Source of the DNA: Fibrobacter sp.
GTDB taxonomy: Bacteria > Fibrobacterota > Fibrobacteria > Fibrobacterales > Fibrobacteraceae
NCBI GenBank assembly: GCA_017550445.1
Contig: JAFZOV010000088.1
Span: forward strand, 1 to 8,528
Direction: 5' to 3'
Length of the DNA: 8,528 nucleotides
This document shows, one piece after another, positions 2,610 to 7,473 of this stretch. Position numbers and translations under genes: made by a program. Every line of letters begins with the position of its first letter. Position 1 is the first letter of the stretch. Below the pieces are notes generated by a model. That model was not told the origin of the DNA. It was given only the letters and a program-made list of their open reading frames with translations, and did not search any database.

Positions 2610-2759
2610 TTGTGTAAACTTTTCTTACGGTTTACTCTGTGGTACGATTCGTCTCGTTTGTGTGATTCATGTCAAGAAAAGCCTTAAAAAGGCCGATTGG
2701 GCGTGTAAAAATTTCTGCCAGCTATTGCTTAGTGTGTAAAAATTATTTATTTTAAGGGT
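2610..2759 (+). promoter_or_regulatory. Regulatory gap before the TIGR02147 gene: GTGTAAA repeats and a possible promoter
   Basis: GTGTAAA occurs three times (2612, 2703, 2734); the last two extend to the shared GTGTAAAAATT. A dyad GTAAAC-N10-GTTTAC spans 2614-2635. A possible promoter is TTGCTT (2725-2730) with a 17-base gap to TATTTT (2748-2753). Its start point would fall about at the ATG at 2760, leaving almost no leader. No clear terminator follows the antitoxin gene; GCCTT-AAA-AAGGC (2681-2693) is a weak stem with no T-run. Confidence 0.35.
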
Positions 2760-3602
2760 ATGTGTATTGCGCTAGAACATCTGTTTGATTACGACGACTT
2801 CCGCAAGTTCCTGCAAGACTACTTTGAGGAACAGAAGAAAATGCGGGCCGTCTTTTCGCACCGATTCTTCGCGGCAAAGGCGGGCTTCAGCAGTTCTTCT
2901 TATTGCTTGAACGTAATCCGCGGACGCTTTAACCTCACGCCAAAGTCAATCGATAAAATCGCGAAGGCGATGGATTTCGAACCGTTGCAGAAGGCGTATT
3001 TCGAGGCCCTGGTGCAGTATAACCAGGCCCAGCAGGTGAACGAGCGCGAAAATGCCTGGGAACAGATTGTCCAGATTCGCAAGCAGATTGAATTTACACA
3101 CGTGACCACGCGTGAACAGGCCTACTTTAGCAAGTGGTACTATCCGGTGGTTCGCGAAATTGCGGTAAACTCCGACTGGCATGACGACTACATGGTGTTG
3201 GCTCGCATGCTTACCCCGCAGATTACTACCGAAGAAGCCCGCGACGCGGTCAAGAAGCTTTTGGAATGGAACCTGATCAAGAAGGTGGGGGACCATTACG
3301 AAGAAACTTCGCAAATGCTGGATGCCGCCGAAATTCCGCCGATTTCTCTGCGCCAGATCCGTCGCGAATACATTCAGCATGCCATCGGTGCCGTGGAATC
3401 CATGCCCAAGAACGAACGTTTTGCGGCGTTCACCACCTTGGCCATGAGCGAAAGTTCTTATAATTACGCTGTTGAAGTTCTAGAAGACGCCCGCAAAAAG
3501 ATAATTGCGAAGGCGGCGAATGATCCAAATGTGGAACGCGTCTACGAGATGATGCTTGTTGCGTTCCCCATGAGTAAGAAAATTGAAAAGGAGGCAAAAT
3601 AA
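2760..3602 (+). CDS. TIGR02147 family protein (HTH-like N-terminus plus DUF4423)
   Basis: A 280-residue cytoplasmic protein with no signal peptide. The opening FDYDDFRKFLQDYFEEQKK is the hallmark start of this family and supports ATG 2760. Residues about 30-75 look like an XRE-type helix-turn-helix (FFAAKAGFSSSSYCLNVIRG, then LTPKSIDKIAKAMDF). Residues about 115-270 match DUF4423: AYFSKWYYPVVREI, LTPQITTEEARDAVKKLLEW, NLIKKVGDHYEET, and the end ERVYEMMLVAFPMSKK. The family is a large paralogous set in Fibrobacter with unknown function; a DNA-binding regulator is inferred from the N-terminal fold. The stop overlaps the ATG of the lipoprotein by one base, so it probably controls or accompanies that protein. 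AAGGG ends only one base before the ATG, too close for a normal ribosome binding site, so initiation here may be weak or leaderless. Confidence 0.88.
   Translation: MCIALEHLFDYDDFRKFLQDYFEEQKKMRAVFSHRFFAAKAGFSSSSYCLNVIRGRFNLTPKSIDKIAKAMDFEPLQKAYFEALVQYNQAQQVNERENAWEQIVQIRKQIEFTHVTTREQAYFSKWYYPVVREIAVNSDWHDDYMVLARMLTPQITTEEARDAVKKLLEWNLIKKVGDHYEETSQMLDAAEIPPISLRQIRREYIQHAIGAVESMPKNERFAAFTTLAMSESSYNYAVEVLEDARKKIIAKAANDPNVERVYEMMLVAFPMSKKIEKEAK
3588..3594 (+). promoter_or_regulatory. Strong internal ribosome binding site for the lipoprotein
   Basis: AAGGAGG inside the last codons of the TIGR02147 gene, 7 bases before ATG 3602. With the TAATG stop/start overlap it indicates translational coupling. 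It contrasts with the poor site of the upstream gene, so more lipoprotein than regulator could be made from one mRNA. Confidence 0.75.
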
Positions 3603-5038
3603 TGGATATCTTGTTCAAATATGCCTCTGGTGTGGCTTTAGCTCTTTTTGCGGCGGGTTTGACTTCTTGTTCCAGGAGCGATGAAACTGCCGGTGGCGTT
3701 ACCGATATCGGTAACTCCGTTGCAAGCGGTATCGTGGTGACCGAGGCGAACCAGCCCGTGGCCCATGCCCGCGTGGTTGCCTATTACGACGACTGGGATA
3801 AGACCGCTATCGAAGATTCTGTCGAAGTTGTCACCGATGACAACGGAAGATTTGAATTGAAATTCGACAGTACCCGCTCTGTGGTGCTGTATGCCGAAAC
3901 CGGTTCCGAATCTGGCCTTTCTCGCATTCAGGATGCGGGCGAAGCTTTGGTGATGATTGGCCACCCCCGCAGACTCGAAAGTAGCGTTGCCGATGCCAAG
4001 TCCGGCTATATGCGCATCGTGGGCCGTAATGCCACGGCATCTGTGGGTAATAACGGCTCCTTTGCTTTTGACTCCATGCCTGTGGGCGACATCTCGCTGG
4101 TGTATGTTGCAAGCGAACAGGCCCAGGCAAGGTTCAACTTCATGACGGCTATTGTGGGCGATACGCTCAAGATTCCGTCTCTCGAAAACAAGAATAAAGG
4201 CTGGCTCACTGTTTCGGATTATCACTATTATAGTGGTGCTGCATACGGTGGCATTATGGTGAACGTACCCGATGGTGTGGTTGTCCCGAAGAACGATACT
4301 CCGCAAGATACGGTTGCTCTGCCGCCGATTGATCCTGATACCACAGCAAAAGATACGACCGTTTCCGATACTACGGAAGAATTGGCGATTTCCTTGGAAC
4401 TCCACATGGACGGCAAGGATGAACAGATTGAAATTCACAACAGTGACGGTTCGGTTGCCGATACAGTGACCTATGTGGAAGGTGTGTCGGGCAAGGGCAT
4501 TTTGCTGAAGGTTGGCCAGTATATCGAAGTGGGCGAGATTGACCCCTGTGCTGGTGACTTTACGATGACGGCATGGACTAAGTGGGGTGGTTATCGCGGT
4601 GACGGTATTTACCAGATTCTCTTTGCAGAACGCTTGAACTGGGAGACCGGATTGTCAAGGTTCCAGTTGCAGTACGAAATTATGCCGAGCTCGATTACGG
4701 CCGTTGGCGATGGCTTGGACTGGTCCGGTTATGGTTATGCTTGGCTTTCTAAGGGTAATGTCGAACGAGGCGGCAAGCTGCCTATGAATGAATGGGCTCA
4801 CTTGGCTCTTGTTTACGAAGGCGGCAAATTGTTCCTCTACATTAACGGCGAACTTGCAAGTGTCGAGGCTGGCGTTCCGTTTAGGCCGAAGGAATTGACA
4901 ACGGCGATGCCGTTCCGCATAGGAGGTTCCGAAGTTGCCGCTGATACTTGGAACGGCCCCATTGACGAAGTGAAGATTGAATCGGTCGCCCATAACGCTG
5001 AATGGGTTAAGGCCGAATACGAAAAATACGCTCGCTAA
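3602..5038 (+). CDS. Secreted lipoprotein with Ig-like/regulatory-like repeats and C-terminal LamG domain
   Basis: A 478-residue protein. Residues 1-22 are a type II signal peptide ending in the lipobox LTSC, with Cys23 as lipidation site, so it should be anchored at the cell envelope. Residues about 35-110 look like a carboxypeptidase-regulatory-like beta sandwich (SGIVVTEANQPVAHARVVAY, then DDNGRFELKFDS). A second, shorter sandwich follows (MRIVGRNATASV, NNGSFAFDSMPVGDISLVYV). A Thr/Asp/Pro-rich linker covers about 230-262. From about 264 to the end is a LamG/concanavalin-type domain of the Laminin_G_3 kind: FTMTAWTKW from 320, NEWAHLALVYEGG from 396, LFLYINGELA, and NGPIDEVKI from 451. Such domains often bind glycans or proteins, but no ligand can be read from the sequence and no catalytic motif was seen. 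Co-translated with the TIGR02147 gene. Lipoprotein and LamG calls are firm; cell-surface carbohydrate contact is inference. Confidence 0.88.
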   Translation: MDILFKYASGVALALFAAGLTSCSRSDETAGGVTDIGNSVASGIVVTEANQPVAHARVVAYYDDWDKTAIEDSVEVVTDDNGRFELKFDSTRSVVLYAETGSESGLSRIQDAGEALVMIGHPRRLESSVADAKSGYMRIVGRNATASVGNNGSFAFDSMPVGDISLVYVASEQAQARFNFMTAIVGDTLKIPSLENKNKGWLTVSDYHYYSGAAYGGIMVNVPDGVVVPKNDTPQDTVALPPIDPDTTAKDTTVSDTTEELAISLELHMDGKDEQIEIHNSDGSVADTVTYVEGVSGKGILLKVGQYIEVGEIDPCAGDFTMTAWTKWGGYRGDGIYQILFAERLNWETGLSRFQLQYEIMPSSITAVGDGLDWSGYGYAWLSKGNVERGGKLPMNEWAHLALVYEGGKLFLYINGELASVEAGVPFRPKELTTAMPFRIGGSEVAADTWNGPIDEVKIESVAHNAEWVKAEYEKYAR

Positions 5039-5039
5039 A

Positions 5040-5090
5040 GTCATCCCCGCGTTTTTCTCTCTTGTCATCCCCGCGTAGGCGGGGATCTCC
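5040..5090. repeat. GTCATCCCCGCG repeat: one half copy and one full palindromic copy
   Basis: GTCATCCCCGCG occurs at 5040-5051 and again at 5064-5075, a 24-base step. Only the second copy is completed by the right arm: ATCCCCGC (5067-5074), loop GTAG, GCGGGGAT (5079-5086), then CTCC. The first is a left half followed by a pyrimidine run. The element begins one base after the lipoprotein stop. This kind of GC-rich palindrome is widespread between bacterial genes; read backwards it gives the familiar spurious peptide IPAYAGMT. Confidence 0.75.
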
Positions 5091-5103: not shown

Positions 5104-5130
5104 AAGGCTCTGTCATAACGACAGAGCTTT
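5104..5130. terminator. Bidirectional terminator between lipoprotein and ferredoxin genes
   Basis: An 11-bp stem with one G-T pair: the left arm is 5104-5114, the loop ATAAC is 5115-5119, and the right arm GACAGAGCTTT is 5120-5130. On the minus strand it is followed by CTTTTTG, a good T-run for ending the ferredoxin transcript. On the plus strand it is followed by AAAAGTTTTG, a weaker stop for the lipoprotein operon. A small GC hairpin, GGCGC-GGG-GCGCC (5149-5161), lies between it and the ferredoxin stop. Confidence 0.75.
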
Positions 5131-5501: not shown

Positions 5502-6278
5502 ATGAAAAAAGTGGTTGTAAAAATTGGTGGCAGCCTGGCAATCGACGAAGCCAAGCTCGCTGATTTTGTGTCGGCAGTCTCTACCCTCCCCGGTAGCGGC
5601 TGTCAGGTAGCCGTGGTTCACGGTGGTGGCAAGGACATCAACGAAAATATTGCCTTGCTCAAGGAACAACCTACATTTATCGACGGCCTGCGAGTAACGA
5701 CTCCCGGCATCATGAAGATGGTGGAAATGACTCTCTCGGGTCATGTGAACAAGAAGCTTGTTCGCATGCTCCTCACCAACGGCTGCAACGCCATCGGTAT
5801 TTCCGGCGTAGATGGCAACCTGTTCCAGGTTGTCAAGAAACAGGGCAAGGTGGACCTTGGCCTGGTGGGCGAAATCAAGCAGGTGAACCCGAAGATTATC
5901 AATGATTTGTTCAGCGCCGGTTGGACCCCGGTGGTAAGCCCCATCTCGATTGGCGACGGCCAGAGCTGGAACGTGAACGCCGACACCGCAGCCTCTGAAC
6001 TGGCAGTGGCGCTCGAAGCCGACCAGTTCGTGCTCGTGAGCGACGTGCCGGGCGTGATGGACGAAAACAAGAATGTGATTCCCGAACTGAGCGAAGCGGA
6101 CGCCGAAAAGCTGATTGAAGCTGGCGTCATCTCCGGCGGTATGATTCCCAAAGTCCGCGAGAGTTTCAAGTCGATCCGACGAGGACTCAAGAGCATCCAC
6201 ATCGTGGGTTGGAAGGACGCGGAACACTTTGGTAAACAAATTAATGGAGATTTAAACTATGGCACAATCTTGCGCTAA
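5502..6278 (+). CDS. argB: Acetylglutamate kinase
   Basis: Phosphorylates N-acetyl-L-glutamate with ATP in the second step of arginine synthesis, in the cytoplasm. At 258 residues it is the short form of the amino acid kinase family. Key positions: Lys7 in KIGG near the start (phosphate binding), HGGGKD at 40-45, Arg64 in GLRVT (substrate carboxylate), NVNAD at 157-161 with catalytic Asp161, SDVPGV, and SGGMIPKV with Lys217 for the transition state. Family knowledge: arginine-inhibited hexameric enzymes carry an extra N-terminal helix. That helix is absent here, since the protein starts directly at the first strand, so it is probably not inhibited by arginine. Its end overlaps argD by 20 bases. 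Promoter and long leader lie in the divergent region upstream. Assignment is firm; the feedback inference depends on length alone. Confidence 0.97.
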   Translation: MKKVVVKIGGSLAIDEAKLADFVSAVSTLPGSGCQVAVVHGGGKDINENIALLKEQPTFIDGLRVTTPGIMKMVEMTLSGHVNKKLVRMLLTNGCNAIGISGVDGNLFQVVKKQGKVDLGLVGEIKQVNPKIINDLFSAGWTPVVSPISIGDGQSWNVNADTAASELAVALEADQFVLVSDVPGVMDENKNVIPELSEADAEKLIEAGVISGGMIPKVRESFKSIRRGLKSIHIVGWKDAEHFGKQINGDLNYGTILR

Positions 6279-7473
6279 CCTGCTCGAACAGGACAAACAA
6301 ATTATCGCGCCGCTCTACGGCAAGGCTGACATTAACTTCGTTAAAGGCGAAGGCTCTTACCTTTACGACGATCAGGGTAACAAGTACCTGGACTTCGTGG
6401 CAGGCATCGCCGTAAATGCGCTCGGTCACCAGAACCAGGCCATCAAGGATGCGGTGGTGGAACAGATGAACCACTTCAACCACATCAGCAACCTCTACCC
6501 GAACTACCCGCAGATTAATCTCGGCAAGGCTCTCCTTGAAATCACCAAGTTCGATAAGGCCTTTTTCTGCAACTCGGGTACCGAGGCGAACGAAGGCTGC
6601 ATCAAGTTTGCACGTAAGTACTTCGACCGGAAGGGCGAAAAGAACAGGCAGAAGATTATCACGTTCGTGAACAGCTTCCACGGCCGTACCTATGCAGCCC
6701 TTTCTGCAACGGGTCAGCCGGCTATCAGGGAAGGCTTCGGCTCTATGCCGGGTGACTTTGTGCATGTGACTTGGAATGACTGCGCCGCCTTGAAGGCCGA
6801 AGTCAACAAGGATACTTGCGCTATCATGCTCGAAAGCCTCGCGGCCGAAGGCGGCGTGATGACGCTTTCTAAAGAAATGGTCGAAACCATCAACAGCCTG
6901 CAGAAGGAATTCGGCTGCCTCGTCATCGTTGACGAAGTGCAGGCAGGCGTGGGCAGGCTCGGAACCTTCTGCGGTTTTGAAAAGTACGGCCTGAATCCGG
7001 ACCTCGTTTCTCTCGCCAAGGGAATCGGTGGCGGCCTGCCGCTCGGTGCCGTGCTTCTGCGCCAGAAGATTGCCGACCAGCTTAAGGCCGGTGACCACGG
7101 CACGACTTTCGGCGGTAACCCGATTGCATGCGCTGCCGGTCTCGCTGTCGTAAAGCAGGTCACGGGCCTCTTGAAGAATGTGGAAGAACGTTCCGCCCAG
7201 ATTAAGGCTGGCCTCAAGGCTCTCGCCGACAAGTATGCCTTTGCTAAGGAAATCCGCGGCGAAGGCTTGATTCTCGGCGTCGCACTCGCCGAAGAAATGC
7301 CGGTGGGTAACATTATCGCCGCAGCCCGCGACGAAAAGCTCATGGTGCTGAGCGCCAAGGGCAACGTGTTGCGTATGCTCCCGCCGCTGAACGTGAGCGA
7401 AGCCGAAGTCGCCGAAGCCCTCGAAAAGCTCGGCAAGGCTTTTGCTACTGCAGCATCCAAGGCCGCTAAGTAA
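6259..7473 (+). CDS. argD: Acetylornithine aminotransferase (PLP-dependent, class III)
   Basis: Converts N-acetylglutamate semialdehyde to N2-acetylornithine using glutamate, the fourth step of arginine synthesis. At 404 residues it is full length. Visible class III aminotransferase motifs: NSGTEANE at 105-112 (phosphate contacts), FHGRTYAALSATGQ from 140 (ring stacking), VDEVQAGVGR with Asp225 (pyridine nitrogen), SLAKGIGGG with Lys254 (Schiff base), and HGTTFGGNP at 280-288 (phosphate contact from the partner subunit). The start is fixed by GGAGA (6246-6250) eight bases upstream, inside argB. The 20-base overlap suggests coupled translation, giving ordered synthesis of the two enzymes. The intervening reductase gene argC is not in the window and must be elsewhere. 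The same enzyme class can also use succinyl-diaminopimelate, so a dual role in lysine synthesis is possible. A terminator follows within 30 bases. Confidence 0.95.
   Translation: MAQSCANLLEQDKQIIAPLYGKADINFVKGEGSYLYDDQGNKYLDFVAGIAVNALGHQNQAIKDAVVEQMNHFNHISNLYPNYPQINLGKALLEITKFDKAFFCNSGTEANEGCIKFARKYFDRKGEKNRQKIITFVNSFHGRTYAALSATGQPAIREGFGSMPGDFVHVTWNDCAALKAEVNKDTCAIMLESLAAEGGVMTLSKEMVETINSLQKEFGCLVIVDEVQAGVGRLGTFCGFEKYGLNPDLVSLAKGIGGGLPLGAVLLRQKIADQLKAGDHGTTFGGNPIACAAGLAVVKQVTGLLKNVEERSAQIKAGLKALADKYAFAKEIRGEGLILGVALAEEMPVGNIIAAARDEKLMVLSAKGNVLRMLPPLNVSEAEVAEALEKLGKAFATAASKAAK

Follow-up and report, generated by a model that had tools for sequence, protein, structure and literature searches.

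Why should the gene of a cytoplasmic regulator be so tightly joined to that of an envelope lipoprotein? This question is raised by two plus-strand genes at positions 2760 to 5038 of an 8,528-nucleotide stretch of Fibrobacter sp. DNA (assembly GCA_017550445.1, contig JAFZOV010000088.1), which we call the window. The first gene (2760..3602) encodes a TIGR02147/DUF4423 regulator-like protein of 280 amino acids (TIGR02147, 3e-65; DUF4423, 7.4e-22). The second (3602..5038) encodes a predicted lipoprotein of 478 amino acids in which Pfam matches and an AlphaFold2 model delineate a signal peptide, a short tag, two beta-rich stretches, a D/T-rich linker and a LamG domain. As the original prediction had pointed out and the sequence confirms, the two open reading frames share a single base, the A of TAATG (3600-3604), and a Shine-Dalgarno-like AAGGAGG for the lipoprotein gene lies inside the regulator gene (3588..3594, plus strand), 7 nucleotides before the ATG at 3602. 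We find that the two form one copy of a two-gene cassette that recurs across the phylum, a pairing that we regard as secure. We further propose, with a probability of about one half, that the cassette is autoregulated and that a conserved tag in the lipoprotein links back to the cognate regulator.

One scan for relatives of the regulator returned 40 related loci in Fibrobacter or its relatives, and the protein matches listed were likewise close relatives. Six genomes of these loci carry 12-28 TIGR02147 genes each, 136 in total, and of 40 genomes sampled from the phylum 34 contain the family, in 2-54 copies. We took the neighbourhoods of all 25 TIGR02147 genes of one genome (G003), all 26 of another (G006) and 17 of the 34 of a third (G022). 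A simple gene-calling script, which can misplace starts, saw 66 of these 68 regulators (it missed L080 and L090), or 67 with the window, and a lipobox rule of our own served to recognise lipoproteins. The next gene encodes a lipoprotein on the same strand after 61 of the 67 regulators (59 by the script and two, L068 and L077, by eye). The other six comprise five whose next gene is on the opposite strand and one with only a distant gene, so that a lipoprotein follows 61 of the 62 TIGR02147 genes that have a same-strand neighbour at all. Among control neighbour pairs of the same loci, called by the script with no rescue by eye, the second gene encodes a lipoprotein in 69 of 520 cases (69 of 377 on the same strand). 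Overlaps follow the same trend: 30 of the 62 regulators with a same-strand neighbour overlap it against 39 of the 377 same-strand controls, and in the related loci plus the window 39 of 41 pairs do (29 by 4 bases, 7 by 1 and 3 by 11, with starts chosen by the script). Because so many related pairs overlap, and because a lipoprotein follows so much more often than in the controls, the overlapping arrangement exceeds chance. In three further genomes (30 of 88 matches: all 9 of G008 and the best of G013 and G045), a same-strand gene stands behind 30 of 30 regulators, often with an overlap of 4 bases. Envelope proteins are thus enriched beside other family members, the very comparison that the original prediction had named as able to refute it, and the repeated module that it imagined for Fibrobacter is real and extends through the phylum sample.

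What, then, do the partners share? Their bodies are largely unrelated: among the 61 scanned, CarboxypepD_reg domains occur in 22, FISUMP (TIGR02145) domains in 18, LamG domains in 9, and pectate lyase or carbohydrate-binding module (CBM) domains in a few. On these counts both FISUMP and LamG were rejected as hallmarks of the module. Common to nearly all partners is a short tag, of the pattern Cys, 3-10 residues, A-G-[GTS]-x-[ST]-[ED]-[TED]-x-[NG]-x-[IVL]-A, which reads AGGVTDIGNSVA here; L055, L070 and L082 depart from it on visual inspection. In the window, its conserved part is AGGVTDIGNS (residues 30-39, 3689..3718, plus strand). The cysteine is Cys23 (codon 3668-3670), which ends the signal peptide and LTSC lipobox (3602..3670, plus strand); it is the sole invariant column in the alignment of 61 partners, is also invariant in 61 aligned rows of close homologues, and is predicted to be lipidated. 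A regular expression found the tag in 51 partners; in 42 of these it starts 5-9 residues after the cysteine. In the loci of G008, G013 and G045 it takes the form GGxxSETxN or similar, and a cysteine with a loosely defined tag, weak in some, occurs in 29 of 30 loci; in the thirtieth (L111) the tag is in a gene further downstream.

The tag also keeps close to the regulators. A profile trained on the 24 partners of G003 scores at least 5 bits in 30 of the 37 partners of G006, G022 and the window. Of 110 other lipoproteins at these loci, 10 reach that score, and four of the ten (L090, L047, L100 and L082) in fact belong to a missed or divergent regulator. Genome-wide, we took only tag matches in genomes with complete regulator lists or none (22 of those from the wider tag survey). 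Of 100 such matches at E <= 1e-4, 92 stand behind a TIGR02147 gene at a distance of no more than 350 bp, and a further 4 lie within 4 kb, otherwise arranged. The last four are a match to the lipobox only, a Gly-rich and accidental-looking one, a true-looking tag without a regulator and the relocated partner L131 described below. Across 40 genomes, tag count follows regulator count (rho 0.92; 0.87 given genome size), uncorrected for phylogeny and with tag counts that are partly lower bounds, as 150 first-look candidates were scored in each candidate-rich genome. Two of the tag profiles (A4 and A5) drew part of their training sequences from genomes that they then searched, which inflates sensitivity there. 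Six genomes without TIGR02147 yielded six tag matches at E <= 1e-3, of which one, Gly-rich and chance-like by eye, reaches 1e-4.

Some cassettes are built differently. In one regulator group (L009, L016, L047 and L100), the regulator diverges from two genes, its immediate neighbour encoding a secreted-looking protein of roughly 790-860 amino acids and the second gene encoding the tagged lipoprotein. The G006 regulator L077 is of the same group (80-83% identical) and keeps the divergent secreted-looking gene; in this metagenome assembly a different contig (L131) carries a tagged lipoprotein that shares about 36-46% identity with its counterparts, and the L077/L131 pair seems to persist unlinked. 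The tagged lipoprotein of L082 is divergent as well. Checked by hand, the two regulators missed by the caller proved to have a tagged partner (L090) and an untagged lipoprotein (L080). At the latter locus (5909-6925), the lipoprotein that follows the TIGR02147 gene presumably resembles a solute-binding protein.

Among close relatives, no part of the lipoprotein is better conserved than the tag. It is present in all 40 related loci and in the window, and it ranks first of 469 ten-residue windows, with 98% mean pairwise identity, where the body reaches 47% and the signal peptide 30%. These values come from 37 close relatives chosen by TDIGN, a choice that excludes L036-L039 (TDIDH) and favours the tag somewhat, although the identity of the regulators shows the same split: L036-L039 carry ITDIDHS or MTDIDHS in place of VTDIGNS, and their regulators are 61-66% identical to that of the window. 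Across 41 loci, the third positions of the tag codons score 0.51 and the second positions 0.98. Because third positions vary and second positions do not, selection acts on the tag as protein, and conservation of RNA or DNA as its cause was ruled out. Over 44 pairs (the 61 partners minus 3 with short regulator calls and 14 that failed the regular expression, a few tags being misparsed), distances between 14-residue tags follow regulator distances with a Mantel r of 0.55, against 0.44 for the whole body and a non-significant 0.07 for the signal peptide; given the body, the partial correlation of tag and regulator is 0.40. In the AlphaFold2 model of the lipoprotein, residues 1-36 have low confidence and the first strand begins at 38, so that the tag falls mostly within the low-confidence stretch. 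The placement of a conserved linear motif in what is probably a flexible stalk suggests a binding partner for it. The tag, which the original prediction missed, is in our judgement the strongest sign in these sequences that both proteins belong together.

The outer parts of the partners are more varied. In the window, the LamG module of the earlier reading holds up, as Laminin_G_3 matches residues 305-469 (4514..5008, plus strand) with 67.6 bits (E 1.7e-18), and a CarboxypepD_reg match of 32.1 bits falls just below the cut-off of 32.3. The model has a mean predicted local distance difference test score (pLDDT) of 79.6 and a predicted template modelling score (pTM) of 0.59, and 131 homologues were found among 7998 candidates scored. 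The genomes G003, G006 and G022 hold 129, 88 and 87 FISUMP domain matches, often several per protein; from these numbers, most should lie outside cassettes, which would take a minority of a widely used outer domain. LamG and FISUMP parts are predicted to serve in carbohydrate binding or adhesion. One paper describes TIGR02145/FISUMP as putatively cellulose-binding or as a possible analogue of cohesin (PMC4704652). A proteome study finds that, of 49 quantified lipoproteins, 40 are lowered on cellulose; the lowered ones that it tabulates include four with CarboxypepD-like domains (PMC6851124).

The regulator is a full-length member of its family, scoring 220.4 bits against TIGR02147 (cut-off 50; profile positions 4-272 of 272) and 78.3 bits against DUF4423 (cut-off 30). 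The helix-turn-helix-like start expected from the first inspection is borne out by the fold model (mean pLDDT 81, pTM 0.50), which shows an XRE-like fold at residues 12-95 (2793..3044, plus strand), where the Pfam score stays under its cut-off (HTH_3, 12.2 against 23). Residues 115-187, within DUF4423 (3102..3320, plus strand), align with winged helices, and the remainder is helical at lower confidence. Profile matches lend the fold additional, weak support. We thus predict an XRE-type helix-turn-helix followed by a winged helix. The N-terminal fold is nearest to the HigA/GraA antitoxins; ComR and ElrR, from the RRNPP receptors with their C-terminal, peptide-binding TPR repeats, appear among the structure matches at chance-level E-values only.

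Does this regulator act on its own promoter? Upstream of the gene lie three plus-strand copies of a repeat that looks like an operator: a distal one (TGTGTAAAC, 2611..2619), a middle one (CGTGTAAAAATT, 2702..2713) upstream of a -35-like TTGCTT, and a proximal one (TGTGTAAAAATT, 2733..2744) in the spacer of the presumed promoter. This promoter (2725..2753, plus strand) would consist of TTGCTT (2725-2730), 17 nucleotides and TATTTT (2748-2753), as suggested by sequence and conservation; a simple sigma-70 scan of the region did not call it. Within 160 nucleotides upstream, TGTGTAA occurs in 1-4 copies on either strand in 37 of 39 related regulators (mean 2.2 per region). The proximal copy stands out by the conservation of TGTGTAAAAAT, which is kept in 35 of the 39 related, otherwise diverged upstream regions as compared to 1 of 912 other genes; among 76 other TIGR02147 regions it recurs in two, L060 and L085, which are same-group genes (those of L012 and L032 fetched again). 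A repeated site in its own promoter, as expected of an autoregulated XRE-type regulator, is thus found for the window's group. A second group (L041, L065 and L091) instead repeats GAACACC and AGTGTTC in 3 of 3 members and in 0 of 109 other regulators. Such group-specific repeats are compatible with self-specific operators, which for the family at large would be an extrapolation. A promoter repeat shared within every cluster was not found, the 15 other clusters showing nothing beyond shuffled sets.

Two further features of these upstream regions deserve mention. The presumed -10 element ends about 6 nucleotides before the ATG, so that the regulator mRNA may be nearly leaderless, and some other family members look similar. 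By eye, many other TIGR02147 genes (e.g. L048, L056, L070, L073, L076 and L096) are preceded by TTTTTGTAT or similar, a variable stretch and a TATTGAC-like -35; the variable stretch could be the specificity part of each operator.

To explain these observations, we envision that the regulator is made first and binds the TGTGTAAAAATT repeats in its own promoter, probably acting as a repressor, given that one of these repeats falls within the spacer of the presumed promoter. Control of its own operon by the regulator is, to us, fairly likely. Translation of the lipoprotein would be coupled to that of the regulator, and its variable outer domain would meet plant polymers while the tag stays constant and specific. 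The tag would then complete a feedback loop, signalling to the regulator in what state the lipoprotein is. The simplest route would involve an unexported pre-lipoprotein which, made beside fresh regulator, would expose its signal peptide and tag in the cytoplasm. Reading of the tag by the cognate regulator is the least certain step, and we put it forward tentatively. The claim of the original prediction that each regulator controls its own lipoprotein thus stays conjectural, but it gains from the repeats specific to the window's group and from a tag that tracks the regulator.

Several observations weigh against this proposal. No route is visible by which a lipoprotein of the envelope could act on a protein in the cytoplasm, and cassettes seem to duplicate as units, so that a slowly evolving tag would track its regulator without contact and the Mantel correlations alone show no contact. 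Five regulators (L055, L078, L080, L081 and L093) have no tagged neighbour in the stretch seen and, conversely, the true-looking tag G013:C14 has no regulator within the 14 kb fetched. Tags away from regulators may also have been missed in G003 and G006, where scoring covered 150 of 252 and 150 of 218 first-look candidates. Group-specific promoter repeats exceed shuffled sets in only 2 of 17 regulator clusters, uncorrected for 17 tests, and promoter repeats in general are but modestly enriched (16 of 57 against 37 of 210, Mann-Whitney p 0.005). The fold matches are modest too: with the whole regulator, Foldseek returned no match at E <= 0.001.

The main rival takes the tag to be an envelope sorting or anchoring signal for one class of surface lipoproteins, with a regulator that answers an internal cue and never meets the tag; unit duplication of cassettes and slow evolution of the tag would suffice to match the two. 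We find this account plausible, if short of probable. The tag does lie just behind the lipid cysteine, in a stretch of low model confidence, and an acidic residue at +2 to +7 in 56 of 61 partners, as against 62 of the 112 remaining lipoproteins at these loci, is reminiscent of Bacteroidetes export signals (PMC5080379). Yet a general sorting signal should also mark other lipoproteins, from which the tag is nearly absent, and a start mostly 5-9 residues from the cysteine is further away than in C-X-K-(D/E)2. In fact,.K[DE][DE] at +2 to +5, the Bacteroidetes type, occurs in 0 of 61 partners, Q-A-(D/E)2 being outside this scoring.

Could the lipoprotein be a bystander? The regulator might mainly control distant genes, such as those for fibre-degrading enzymes, with the lipoprotein incidental or merely co-expressed. 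The S85 genome paper calls cellulase gene regulation an unanswered question, sees few recognisable regulators near the cellulase genes and supposes that regulators lie elsewhere (PMC3079729). We nonetheless hold this improbable, because a pairing with tagged lipoproteins across the phylum sample, divergent and relocated pairs included, does not look incidental. Still less credible, and in our view very unlikely, is a toxin-antitoxin-like or selfish module in which a helix-turn-helix protein of HigA-like fold restrains a harmful partner. Overlapping genes and the nearness of the N-terminal fold to antitoxins would suit it, but a shared fold shows no function. The partners, among which no toxin family was found, are predicted to be lipoproteins that carry LamG, FISUMP, CBM or similar domains, and the window's partner, with its LamG and CarboxypepD_reg-like domains, is not the toxin-family protein that a HigBA pair calls for. 

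An autoregulated cassette with a tag that reports to its regulator also has a bolder version. Here every TIGR02147 regulator would directly read the N-terminal tag on the lipoprotein with which it is paired, either ahead of export or while export is under way. As many as about fifty orthogonal switch-tag pairs would then coexist in one genome, each reset by unexported lipoprotein or by a returned tag peptide. This version is doubtful but, if true, it would amount to a private export-feedback code choosing the surface proteins that a fibre-digesting cell displays.

The cassette has neighbours of its own. Just upstream (1671-2609) lies what we take to be a HigBA-like toxin-antitoxin pair, with a RelE/ParE-like match of 17.5 bits, below the cut-off, and an HTH_37 antitoxin match of 36.6 bits. 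In L001-L007 its slot, behind a conserved gene, is empty or holds a different small open reading frame (gene calls by script). Downstream, an inverted-repeat element GTCATCCCCGCG...GTAGGCGGGGATC occupies window positions 5039-5090; elements of this kind often recur between genes. It is followed by a terminator-like hairpin (5107-5127) for a minus-strand gene, presumably ferredoxin-like, and by genes that we take to be argB and argD. An Rfam search of the window gave no match at gathering score, and no relatives were found in the viral contigs searched.

Fibrobacter is a main cellulose degrader of the rumen. Pairing with tagged surface-type lipoproteins turns the TIGR02147 family into tens of testable regulators per genome, with a first site at 2600-2760, and the cassettes would help to explain how fibre-digesting microbes choose their surface proteins. 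Should the regulator read the tag, envelope and transcription would be linked in a new way; should the tag be a sorting signal, it would be a new one for the phylum. TIGR02147 (Fsuc_second)/DUF4423, to which the window's regulator belongs over its full length, goes by no name beyond that of a paralogue family or a domain of unknown function. In the literature searched, no paper mentions TIGR02147 by name; DUF4423 is mentioned in one, in a line of a Bdellovibrio table, and passages of PMC4704652, PMC4619616 and PMC6851124 do not describe the pairing. To this family, the lipoprotein pairing and the tag are added here.

How does the cassette compare with known systems? RsgI is a membrane-spanning anti-sigma factor. 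The SigI/RsgI biomass-sensing pairs of Clostridium thermocellum come nearest in design, being likewise paralogous, individual pairs of a regulator and an envelope protein that sense different substrates (PMC4711584). Unlike RsgI, the cassette partner is a predicted lipoprotein without a cytoplasmic part, and its regulator is a helix-turn-helix protein and no sigma factor; in fact, neither window protein has a sigma or anti-sigma family among its Pfam and NCBIfam matches at E <= 1. RRNPP/PrgX-type regulators read peptides, some of which come from lipoprotein signal peptides. They too tie a helix-turn-helix regulator to a short N-terminal lipoprotein sequence, but the C-terminal part of the cassette regulator, where they have TPR repeats, models partly as a winged helix and is otherwise helical at lower confidence, and the conserved sequence stands behind the lipid cysteine, the signal peptide being poorly conserved (30%). 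As compared to the HigA/GraA antitoxins, of XRE fold, the cassette regulator has a further winged-helix-like domain and a lipoprotein, not a toxin, for its partner. Finally, the Bacteroidetes lipoprotein export signal is also short and conserved, and it follows closely on the +1 cysteine in surface lipoproteins (PMC5080379). The cassette tag differs from it in being longer, in standing mostly 5-9 residues behind the cysteine, in its make-up of Gly, Thr/Ser, Glu/Asp and Asn, and in marking one class of gene neighbourhood.

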